Shown here piece by piece: positions 15,021 to 42,440 of a DNA stretch of 43,080 nucleotides. The DNA comes from Bacteroidales bacterium (GTDB taxonomy: Bacteria > Bacteroidota > Bacteroidia > Bacteroidales > Cfx3-03). The stretch covers positions 1 through 43,080 of the forward strand of contig JAHEYR010000005.1 in NCBI GenBank assembly GCA_023251485.1, read 5' to 3'. Within the stretch, counting starts at the first letter, position 1. Every line of letters starts with the position of its first letter. Made by a program: the position numbers and the translations under genes. The notes beneath the pieces were generated by a model. It was not told the DNA's origin. It did no database searches and saw only the letters and a program-made list of their open reading frames with translations.

Positions 15021-15300
15021 GTCTCCTGTTTTTTGGAATAAAAAGGAATCAGTCGAAAAAGTTGGGGAGCGTTCGTTTTATCTTTCTAATCTTAGAGAGA
15101 ATTCCAATAGCGTAAAATCATTATCTGCAACTTATTAATGGATATAAAAAATCAACGCTCGCTTATCTTTATTGAGTATCTTTGTGTTTGACTTTTAAAA
15201 CCAGATCTATGGTTTTATCCTGTTTTTAAAACGATCTTTTTTAAAACAGCAGGACGCTCAATACGTCTGAAATTCCAACCTAATCATTTTTCGATTCTCT

Positions 15301-15512
15301 CCATAAACAGATGATAAATCGTTTCTATATCACTCATAAAAGGAAGGGTCTGTCCATAGTTTGTCCATACTTAGTCCATAGTTTCTCCATACTTTGTCCA
15401 TACTTATAAGATATGGAGTAACTATGGACAAACCTTCGACAAGGTGTCGACAAAGTTTTGACAACCCCATCTGTTTAGGGGAGACGTATCATCCTTTTAT
15501 CATCTGCATAAG
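15301..15512. repeat. Long imperfect palindrome with core of 5 + 5 oppositely oriented 11-bp units (array 15351-15463)
   Basis: Left units TGTCCATAGTT/TGTCCATACTT/AGTCCATAGTT/TCTCCATACTT/TGTCCATACTT; hinge ATA; right units AGATATGGAGT/AACTATGGACA/AACCTTCGACA/AGGTGTCGACA/AAGTTTTGACA; equidistant arms CAGATGATAAA (15308-15318) and TTTATCATCTG (15496-15506). Confidence 0.9.
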
Positions 15513-15567
15513 ATAGGTAATGAAGTTTTTTGAATTAAAATTTATCAGGGGAAGAGGCTATCGTGCT

Positions 15568-15597
15568 CGTCAATAAAGCAGCTCTAATTTATTGACG
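15568..15597. repeat. Perfect 10-bp stem hairpin (cgtcaataaa / tttattgacg)
   Basis: Arms 15568-15577 and 15588-15597, 10-nt loop. Confidence 0.8.
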
Positions 15598-15621
15598 TTT
15601 ATCTAGGTTTTTATCAAAAAA

Positions 15622-15657
15622 GAAATAATCAGATTTCAAGAAAAAATAGATTATTTC
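15622..15657. repeat. Perfect 9-bp stem hairpin (gaaataatc / gattatttc)
   Basis: Arms 15622-15630 and 15649-15657. Confidence 0.65.
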
Positions 15658-15692
15658 AGAAATTAGTCTTATCAAAGGTATAACTTTTTTGC

Positions 15693-15782
15693 ATCAGTCA
15701 GAATCATTTTATAGGATCAATTTATTTTAGGATGATTCGTGCTCCACAACTATTCTGACTGATCCATAAAGTTATGGAGCAC
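15693..15782. repeat. Interlocked inverted repeats with A-B-A'-B' order
   Basis: A atcagtcagaat 15693-15704 / A' attctgactgat 15752-15763 (perfect); B gtgctccacaac 15739-15750 / B' gttatggagcac 15771-15782 (11/12). Confidence 0.75.
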
Positions 15783-35883: not shown

Positions 35884-38616
35884 TTACTTTCCCTCTTTGA
35901 TAGCAGCTTGTGAAGCAGCCAAACGTGCAATAGGAACACGGAATGGTGAGCATGAAACATAGTTCATACCTACTGTATGGCAGAATTCAACAGATGATGG
36001 TTCGCCACCATGTTCGCCGCAAATACCAACCTTAAGGTTAGGACGTACGCTACGACCTTTTTCAGTACCCATACGAACAAGTTGTCCAACACCTTCCTGG
36101 TCAAGAACCTGGAATGGATCGAATTTCAAGATGTTCTTATCTAAGTAGATTGGGAGGAATGAACCGATATCATCACGTGAATAACCAAATGTCATCTGGG
36201 TTAAGTCATTAGTACCAAATGAGAAGAACTCAGCTACATCAGCAAATTCGTTAGCGGTAAGTGCTGCACGAGGAATTTCAATCATTGTACCAACAAGATA
36301 CTCGATTTTTTCTCCACGTTCTGCAAACACTTCTGAAGCAACACGACGAACGATGTTAACCTGCATTTCAAGTTCTTTCTTTGTACCAGCGAGTGGGATC
36401 ATGATTTCAGGAATAGCCTTCTTGCCTTTTTTATTAAGGTTCATTGCTGCCTCAATAATAGCGCGGGTCTGCATTTCAGAAATTTCAGGATATGTATTAC
36501 CTAAACGGCAACCACGGTGACCAAGCATTGGGTTGAACTCGTGTAGGCTTTCAACTTTACGTTTAACCTGCTCGTAGCTAATTCCCATTTCTTTAGCCAT
36601 TTCCTTTTGATTTTCTTCTTCATGAGGAACAAACTCATGCAAAGGTGGGTCAAGTAGACGAACAGTAACAGGTAGTCCATCCATAGCTTCGAAGATACCT
36701 TCGAAATCTTCACGCTGAATTGGAAGTAATTTAGCCAAAGCTTTACGACGACCAGCTTCATCATCAGCAAGAATCATTTCGCGCATAGCGAAGATCTTCT
36801 CACCTTCGAAGAACATGTGTTCTGTACGGCAAAGACCAATACCCTGAGCTCCGAATTTACGAGCAACAGCAGCATCATGAGGAGTATCTGCATTCGTACG
36901 AACATACATTCTTGAATATTTATCAGACAATGTCATCAACTCTCCAAAGAAACCTGAAAGTTCTGGTGACATAGTCGTGATTTTTCCTTCATAAACTTCA
37001 CCGGTAGAACCGTTCAAAGAGATGAAATCACCTTCGCTATAAACATTACCGCTCATTTTAACTGTGCGGGTCTTATAATCGATTTCAATTTTTCCAGCTC
37101 CTGAAACGCAACATTTACCCATACCACGAGCAACAACAGCTGCATGTGAGGTCATACCACCACGAGCGGTAAGAATACCTTCAGCAACGTTCATCCCACG
37201 TAAGTCTTCAGGAGAAGTCTCAATACGAACAAGGATGATTTTCTTTCCTTCAGCCGCCCATGCTTCAGCATCGTCAGCAAAGAAAACGATCTGGCCTGTA
37301 GCAGCACCTGGTGATGCAGGTAAACCTTTTGCAACAGTCTTAGCCTTTTTCAGTGCAGCTTTATCGAATACTGGGTGTAATAACTCATCCAGTTTTTCTG
37401 GCTCAACACGTAAGATAGCATCTTTTTCAGTAATCATACCTTCAGCAACCATTTCCATAGCTGCACGAACCATACAAGCACCTGTACGTTTTGCATTACG
37501 CGTTTGAAGCATCCATAATTTACCATCCTGGATAGTAAACTCGATGTCCTGCATATCTTTGTAATGGCTTTCGAGGTGATTTTGAATATCAAATAGTTCT
37601 TTGTAAACTACTGGCATAGTCTCTTCCAATGAAGGATATTCGCTTTTACGAACGGCTTCGGTAATACCTTGCTGAGCAGCCCAACGAATAGAACCTTCAA
37701 GTGTGATCTGTTGTGGAGTACGAATACCGGCTACAACATCTTCACCCTGAGCATTAATTAAATATTCACCGTTGAAAATATTTTCTCCGGTAGCAGCATC
37801 ACGCGTAAAGGCAACACCGGTAGCTGAGTTAAGACCCATATTACCAAATACCATTGCCTGAACGTTTACAGCTGTTCCCCATTCAGCAGGAATATTGTTT
37901 AGTTTACGATAGAAAATAGCACGGTCGTTCATCCAGCTATCAAATACAGCTGTGATAGCACCCCATAACTGCTCCCAAGGATTAGTTGGGAAATCGCTAC
38001 CGGTTTTTTCTTTAACAACAGCTTTGAAGCGTTTAACCATTTCCTGAAGATCTTCAACTTGAAGTTCAGTATCTAGTTCAACACCTTTTTCTTCTTTTAA
38101 TTCATCAATAATTACTTCAAATGGATCTTCGTCTTCTTTAGACTCAGGTTTCATCCCAAGAACAACATCACCATACATTTGAACAAAACGACGATATGAA
38201 TCCCATGCAAAACGTGGATTACCACTCTTAGCTGCAATTACTTCAACAACTTCATCGTTTAAACCAAGATTTAAAATGGTATCCATCATACCTGGCATAG
38301 AGGCACGTGCACCTGAACGAACAGAAACCAATAATGGATTTTTAGCACCACCAAACAATGGGCCACCTACCGTTGCTTCAACTTGCTTCATAGCAGCTTC
38401 TACAGCAGGCTTTATAATTTTTACGGTTTCGTCTTTACCTATTTTGTAATAATCATTACAAACTTCAGTAGTAATAGTAAAACCTGGAGGAACAGGAATT
38501 CCGATCAAATTCATGTCATGAAGGTTTGCACCTTTTCCACCAAGCAGATTCTTCATACTTCCGTTTCCTTCAGCCTGCTTTCCGCCAAAGAAATAAACGT
38601 ACTTGTTTTCGCTCAT
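35884..38616 (-). CDS. ppdK: Pyruvate, phosphate dikinase
   Basis: 910 aa; YVYFFGGKQAEGNGSMKNLLGGKGANLHDMNLIGIPVPPGF; GGMTSHAAVVARGMGKCCVSG; CGEHGGEPSSVEF. Confidence 0.97.
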   Translation of the reverse strand: MSENKYVYFFGGKQAEGNGSMKNLLGGKGANLHDMNLIGIPVPPGFTITTEVCNDYYKIGKDETVKIIKPAVEAAMKQVEATVGGPLFGGAKNPLLVSVRSGARASMPGMMDTILNLGLNDEVVEVIAAKSGNPRFAWDSYRRFVQMYGDVVLGMKPESKEDEDPFEVIIDELKEEKGVELDTELQVEDLQEMVKRFKAVVKEKTGSDFPTNPWEQLWGAITAVFDSWMNDRAIFYRKLNNIPAEWGTAVNVQAMVFGNMGLNSATGVAFTRDAATGENIFNGEYLINAQGEDVVAGIRTPQQITLEGSIRWAAQQGITEAVRKSEYPSLEETMPVVYKELFDIQNHLESHYKDMQDIEFTIQDGKLWMLQTRNAKRTGACMVRAAMEMVAEGMITEKDAILRVEPEKLDELLHPVFDKAALKKAKTVAKGLPASPGAATGQIVFFADDAEAWAAEGKKIILVRIETSPEDLRGMNVAEGILTARGGMTSHAAVVARGMGKCCVSGAGKIEIDYKTRTVKMSGNVYSEGDFISLNGSTGEVYEGKITTMSPELSGFFGELMTLSDKYSRMYVRTNADTPHDAAVARKFGAQGIGLCRTEHMFFEGEKIFAMREMILADDEAGRRKALAKLLPIQREDFEGIFEAMDGLPVTVRLLDPPLHEFVPHEEENQKEMAKEMGISYEQVKRKVESLHEFNPMLGHRGCRLGNTYPEISEMQTRAIIEAAMNLNKKGKKAIPEIMIPLAGTKKELEMQVNIVRRVASEVFAERGEKIEYLVGTMIEIPRAALTANEFADVAEFFSFGTNDLTQMTFGYSRDDIGSFLPIYLDKNILKFDPFQVLDQEGVGQLVRMGTEKGRSVRPNLKVGICGEHGGEPSSVEFCHTVGMNYVSCSPFRVPIARLAASQAAIKEGK

Positions 38617-41887: not shown

Positions 41888-41991
41888 ATTATTTTGGAAG
41901 ATAAATCCATGAGCCCGGTATAAAAAAGACAAAATAGTTTTTAAACTAACCCCCTCAATAGAACCTCGAAAGAACCTCTTGACACAGTTAA

Positions 41992-42221
41992 GACAATACC
42001 TAAGGATAAAGGGTAGAATAGCCCTGGATGAAGAGTATATAAAGTGTATCCGTCTCGCACGTGTTTCGCACGTGTCTCGCACATGTCTCGCACCTGTCTC
42101 GCTATATAGAGCGAGACTCGTGCGAAACTGGTCCGAAACACGTGCGACACTGGTGCGATAAATAGACAAGTCATCGACTAATAATCTACCGGTATTCTAC
42201 CTGTTATTCCTAGGTCATATC
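41992..42221. repeat. Long imperfect palindrome with core of oppositely oriented 11-bp units (array 42053-42160)
   Basis: Left TCTCGCACGTG/TTTCGCACGTG/TCTCGCACATG/TCTCGCACCTG/TCTCGCT, loop ATATAG, right AGCGAGA/CTCGTGCGAAA/CTGGTCCGAAA/CACGTGCGACA/CTGGTGCGATA; outer arms 41998-42022 and 42191-42215, 20/25 Watson-Crick pairs about the same centre. Confidence 0.92.
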
Positions 42222-42397
42222 AGATTTATCACAGAATTTTTAAAGCATTGTTCCCTTTTGAAATTGGGATATACTTTTAAGGGTAGAATGAAAATTGGGG
42301 TGAAGGTTCAAACAGATATAATGATGAGTTGATCCGGATAAAAGTGCTTCAAAAACCGGATAAAACCTTGAACCAGATTCTAAAATGCAAACATAAA

Positions 42398-42440
42398 ATT
42401 AGTGAGAAAAAATGACATAAAATCATTTTTTCTCACTAAT
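42398..42440 (-). terminator. Terminator after alpha-L-fucosidase gene
   Basis: 18-bp perfect stem attagtgagaaaaaatga / tcattttttctcactaat, 7-nt loop. Confidence 0.8.

Follow-up and report, generated by a model that had tools for sequence, protein, structure and literature searches.

The dyad-symmetric element at 41965-42240 (+ strand) of the window, the whole 43,080-nucleotide stretch of DNA analysed here, is one copy of a dispersed intergenic repeat, family A. About seven unrelated-looking families (A-G) with the same 11-bp-phased dyad architecture occur in a single Bacteroidota genus. On balance, family A is probably a non-coding, MITE-like repeat with an 11-bp minisatellite core arranged as a dyad, whose arrays act as helically phased sites on duplex DNA. 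Dispersed palindromic repeats in general are common and poorly understood. The combination found in this genus, of several families with one geometry, insertions and deletions (indels) quantised in 11-bp steps and family turnover at fixed gaps, separates geometry from sequence, so that the function of such repeats becomes testable. The window lies in a draft genome of 322 contigs (G000), which was compared with two congeners, G001 (the sister species) and G002.

Geometry and dispersal of family A

The dyad core spans 41998-42215, is centred on 42106.5 and pairs at 77 of 109 positions. Its left arm contains four 11-bp units on the + strand, L1 (TCTCGCACGTG, 42053-42063), L2 (TTTCGCACGTG, 42064-42074), L3 (TCTCGCACATG, 42075-42085) and L4 (TCTCGCACCTG, 42086-42096), followed by a partial unit TCTCGCT (42097-42103, +) and a central loop ATATAG (42104-42109). 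The right arm mirrors this arrangement on the - strand, with the partial unit TCTCGCT (42110-42116) and the inverted units R4 (TTTCGCACGAG, 42117-42127), R3 (TTTCGGACCAG, 42128-42138), which carries a C to G change in its core, R2 (TGTCGCACGTG, 42139-42149) and R1 (TATCGCACCAG, 42150-42160). Beyond the array, the outer arm GGTAGAATA (42012-42020, +) pairs at 9/9 positions with TATTCTACC (42193-42201, +), and 41998-42022 pairs at 20/25. The first-pass annotation had placed the centre, the full and partial units and the outer symmetry at these same positions, and all were confirmed. Pairing declines outward, to 14/44 over 41954-41997, and the ends of homology with other copies are not sharp. Copies in G000 align across up to 276 of the 276 bases, with 93% for the C73 copy.

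The segment 42053-42106, with 42 of its 54 positions paired, is the best 54-pair ungapped dyad in the window. In 60 dinucleotide-shuffled windows the best such dyad reached at most 33 pairs and averaged 29, so shuffling does not yield equal scores. A repeat search returned the identical 109-nt arms (71%), and the DNA fold of 41970-42240 is equalled in none of 200 shuffles (z = -7.0). When periods from 7 to 16 were tested, array loci appeared in the window at period 11 only, and there are two of them, family A and a locus at 15.4 kb.

The element is flanked by a redoxin-domain gene and an alpha-L-fucosidase gene. Just past the end of the latter is an AT-rich, terminator-like inverted repeat (AATTAGTGAGAAAAAATGACATAAAATCATTTTTTCTCACTAAT, 42393-42440), which aligns at the G001 ortholog. 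Elsewhere in the window, a pyruvate phosphate dikinase-like gene (35884-38616, 910 aa) shows a 71% match to a 4-kb record, MT839824 ('Bacteriophage sp.'), which looks like mislabelled bacterial DNA.

A 236-bp DNA query places family A at 12 positions in G000, where several matches stop at contig ends. In G002 it occurs at ~75% identity on 12 contigs, with six further contigs from a later search. The DNA search found no match in G001 or in 57 other same-order genomes outside the genus. A scan of this and related genomes, proposed in the first-pass annotation, showed the element to be multi-copy in two of the three genomes of the genus (at least 12 copies in G000, at least 18 in G002), with no match in the third. 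All copies examined lie between open reading frames with no gene inside, and the orientation of the neighbouring genes varies. Neither terminal inverted repeats nor a target-site duplication can be recognised in family A, and an exact search for its flank in viral contigs returned nothing.

Phase conservation and the RNA reading

Copies of family A differ by whole units; L006 is shorter by 11 bp, L007 is shorter by 22 bp and L005 is longer by 11 bp in its flank. Across 57 copies from five families there are 21 indels of at least 4 bp, and 16 of these measure exactly 11 or 22 bp. The remaining five include a 5 + 6 pair in L200 that sums to 11, and three from a poorly aligned copy, L072. The rule extends to flanks without obvious units. 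Many of these indels are confined to one arm, which breaks the register of a hairpin and keeps the phase of a duplex. Conservation on the unit motif and on 11-bp phase is accordingly stronger than on pairing, as had been suspected from the single locus, and the phase constraint looks to act at the DNA level. A bendability signature, in the form of alternating A/T and G/C within the unit, was sought as well and rejected (combined p = 0.35).

It is very unlikely that the dyad functions as a transcribed long hairpin RNA. The strong fold of family A (z = -7) is what such an RNA would show, and so is the coordinated change from TCGCAC/GTGCGA to TCGTAC/GTACGA that separates G000 from G002. In family B some changes fall on both arms (L061, L067, L084), which is also expected of a hairpin-based role; G and C are exchanged at paired positions on both arms in L061 and L067, and a neighbouring unit has been copied in shifted register in L063, L071 and L084. 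Template switching accounts for these paired and shifted changes as well as selection does. Mismatches in the self-alignments of 36 copies comprise 134 A-C, 120 G-T and 568 others with no overall strand bias, and neither family A of G000 nor family B shows a G-U bias on either strand, which makes an RNA hairpin unlikely. The G002 copies of family A alone lean to one strand, but these are few in number and close relatives of one another. No consistent advantage in folding was seen for either strand, one-arm 11-bp indels recur and the orientation of genes around the copies is not fixed. The RNA hairpin was set aside on the absent wobble bias, the weak consensus fold and the lack of an Rfam match. 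Duplex DNA is the better reading on the whole-step, often one-arm indels together with the missing G-U bias. The earlier preference for phased binding sites over a simple RNA hairpin was borne out to this extent; its view of a local array was incomplete, since the element is dispersed.

In the duplex reading the arrays would be read as double-stranded DNA with their sites aligned on one helical face; the helical pitch in vivo under negative supercoiling is ~11 bp. The putative reader could be a transposase or accessory protein specific to the family, or a nucleoid protein of the host. The families carry different units, so one sequence-specific protein cannot explain the whole class. The arrays may stay regular through slippage of units and through template switching at the hairpin.

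These two processes could also be the entire explanation, with minisatellites regularised as a purely mutational by-product free of selection. The whole-unit indels would follow directly, as would the changes in an arm that reproduce adjacent units with a shift of register, and TCCATA tandem arrays without a dyad exist in other Bacteroidota. We nevertheless think this origin quite unlikely, since 11-bp indels also occur in flanks without obvious units, whole elements are dispersed, period 11 is strongly preferred over others and the core is more conserved than the flanks in two ortholog pairs.

Tandem arrays that match the pattern TCCATANTTNNTCCATANTTNNTCCATA but lack a dyad occur in Flavobacterium fontis, Arenibacter, Saprospiraceae and Chitinophaga, among others, and the arrays in non-Bacteroidota are mostly shorter; the search was limited to that unit, and its matches outside the genus are a lead only. 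Long 11-bp TCCATA-type arrays without a dyad (L104, L113, L125, L135) were seen in Flavobacterium fontis, Arenibacter sp. P308M17 and Chitinophaga sp. CF118. Three viral contigs (L138-L140) have an array of TCCATAATTAG in common, with more lag-11 and lag-12 arrays nearby.

Other families, insertion sequences and orthologous gaps

The second array locus of the window, already listed as a locus in the first-pass annotation, belongs to family B. Its dyad core lies at 15308-15506 (+), with units TGTCCATACTT at 15351-15405, inside a MITE-like frame (copy B1, 15046-15765, +) bounded by inverted repeats that match GGATCAGTCNGAANAGTTG at 15046-15064 (+, 2 mismatches) and 15747-15765 (-, 0 mismatches). 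Homology of L058 and L064 to B1 covers ~735 bp and stops at these repeats. A second hairpin within the frame (15686-15770) takes in the right terminal repeat. Family B was located at 8 positions in G000 and 17 in G001, with no match in G002. One of its copies (L080, G001:C1 ~4792702-4793869) sits inside a 1000-bp tandem duplication that is 99.9% identical, and is either biology or an assembly artefact.

Scanning 400 kb of G001 brought up families C, D, E and F, which are dispersed across the genus; family G also emerged from scanning and has at least two places. In 620 kb of G001, at an identity threshold of at least 0.60, there are 8 lag-11 array loci and between 0 and 3 at each other lag. 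Three of the 57 same-order genomes outside the genus yielded one weak lag-11 locus in the 260 kb sampled. Cross-family BLAST gave weak similarity only (top pair B/E, E = 0.001), and a search for flanks common to different families likewise gave only weak matches. Along G001, the strand of B, D and F follows no consistent replication-strand pattern by eye, judged against a coarse sampling of GC skew.

The GGATCAGTCNGAANAGTTG repeats bound copies of family E as well as B1; in family E, the two repeats that enclose a copy are separated by 460-500 bp. They also delimit an element of 1.55 kb in G001, part of which reads N and which encodes an ISL3-type transposase (PF01610, E 4e-52). The match between the terminal inverted repeats of B and E and those of an ISL3-type insertion sequence points to mobilisation in trans, and mobility of these two families by that route is supported. 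The GGATCAGTCNGAANAGTTG terminal repeat was not found on A, D or F. In the terminal-repeat test, repeats were present for B1 and E and absent for A, and no clear target-site duplication was seen. Family A may be, or may once have been, mobile by a similar route. Against the MITE-like reading stand the lack of recognisable terminal repeats and target-site duplication in A, the blurred boundary of the one empty orthologous site (L004, below) and the failure to identify a mobiliser for families C, D, F and G.

IS3-type elements (rve domains) adjoin D and F arrays. Four D arrays (L208, L209, L213 and L225) have an IS3 end of TGTCCCTTACTG type at 22, 11, 22 and 21 bp. These distances fall close to multiples of 11, as would be expected if insertion followed the phase of the array; another such end lies 0 bp from an F array. 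A second type of IS3 end accompanies three F arrays, at distances of 12, 7 and 40 bp. A split copy of F was considered as an autonomous element, but it is an IS3-type insertion.

Loci with usable flanks were followed from G000 into G001. The same family occupies the orthologous gap in four cases, three with family B (L066/L059, L068/L073, L072/L084) and one with family E (L177/L164). Where the family of G000 is absent at the G001 ortholog, another 11-bp family is present at four of five loci (B, G, F, F), and the fifth gap is empty. The family A element of the window is replaced by B (L065), L003 by G, L007 by F in a gap read as upstream of ribosomal protein genes, and the B locus of the window by F with an IS3-type insertion. 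The locus of L004 is empty with no clean boundary, and that of L005, matched on one side only, was not counted. The F copy at G001:C1:1064784 is part of this replacement evidence.

A different family in the same gap at four of five loci is unusual. With about one array per 77 kb and an assumed ~8-fold intergenic enrichment, ~6% of gaps would hold an array by chance, and 4/5 would have p ~6e-5; both figures are rough. Were permissive gaps to make up only a quarter or so of the total, p would rise to ~0.01, again roughly. Two of the three B/B pairs allowed a comparison of core and flanks, the third not being centrable. The inner 120 bp are 91% identical in the first pair against 83% in the alignable flank, and 86% in the second against flanks of 68-75%, with 88% farther out on one side. 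Conservation of position together with a more conserved core suggests a host role beyond mobility.

Such a role could be that of chromosomal sites maintained by the host for nucleoid organisation, insulation or topology control at particular gaps, with interchangeable families. The replacements at four of five loci, the old positions common to both species and the B core that is more conserved than its flanks in two ortholog pairs all fit this. However, insertion-tolerant gaps predict the same pattern and p ~0.01 is not overwhelming, one G001 locus is empty, the orientation of neighbours is not fixed, and units that differ by family make a single sequence-specific reader hard to imagine. We regard host-maintained sites as rather unlikely. 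A stricter form, in which some gaps must carry an 11-bp-phased dyad for a host function sensitive to helical phase and symmetry instead of sequence, would let unrelated families replace one another, and appears about as improbable as the purely mutational origin. The MITE-like repeat with duplex-phased arrays is the reading retained for the comparisons below.

Comparison with known systems

The plasmid parC centromere (R1 ParR) also consists of 11-bp iterons, as direct repeats at a single locus beside parMR. As there, clusters of 11-bp units could align on one face of the DNA; the present elements differ in that they are dyads scattered over the chromosome and have several unit sequences. The B1 and E frames resemble ISL3-family MITEs in carrying the terminal repeats of the G001 ISL3-type element, unlike A, D and F, where the GGATCAGTCNGAANAGTTG repeat was not found. 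To our knowledge a phased internal array is not an ISL3 feature.

REP and BIME elements are likewise dispersed intergenic palindromes that insertion sequences enter, and REPs are known targets of specific insertion sequences (PMC1525189). REPs, however, measure 20-40 bp and carry GTAG/CGTC tags (PMC3733652), whereas the arrays described here are phased and extend over 200-300 bp. Y1 (RAYT) transposase genes number one in G000, two in G002 and none in G001. A REP/RAYT system was rejected, as G001 lacks the Y1 transposase yet carries B, D, E and F.

BrickBuilt of Porphyromonas gingivalis, the only precedent found in a search of the literature for 11-bp arrays in Bacteroidota, is a minisatellite within a MITE, with 19 copies that are always intergenic (PMC4596501). 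It is a single family of 23-nt direct repeats that has a leader and a tail, is predicted to form long stem-loops, varies in length by whole units and carries small terminal inverted repeats (PMC4596501). The families described here are similarly dispersed, intergenic and non-coding repeats of Bacteroidota whose unit number varies between copies. They differ in having 11-bp units arranged in a dyad, in comprising several unrelated families and in the occurrence of other families at orthologous loci, and family A lacks recognisable terminal repeats where BrickBuilt has small ones. The class to which family A belongs is a new architecture of minisatellite-bearing, probably MITE-like repeat, and BrickBuilt is its nearest known counterpart.
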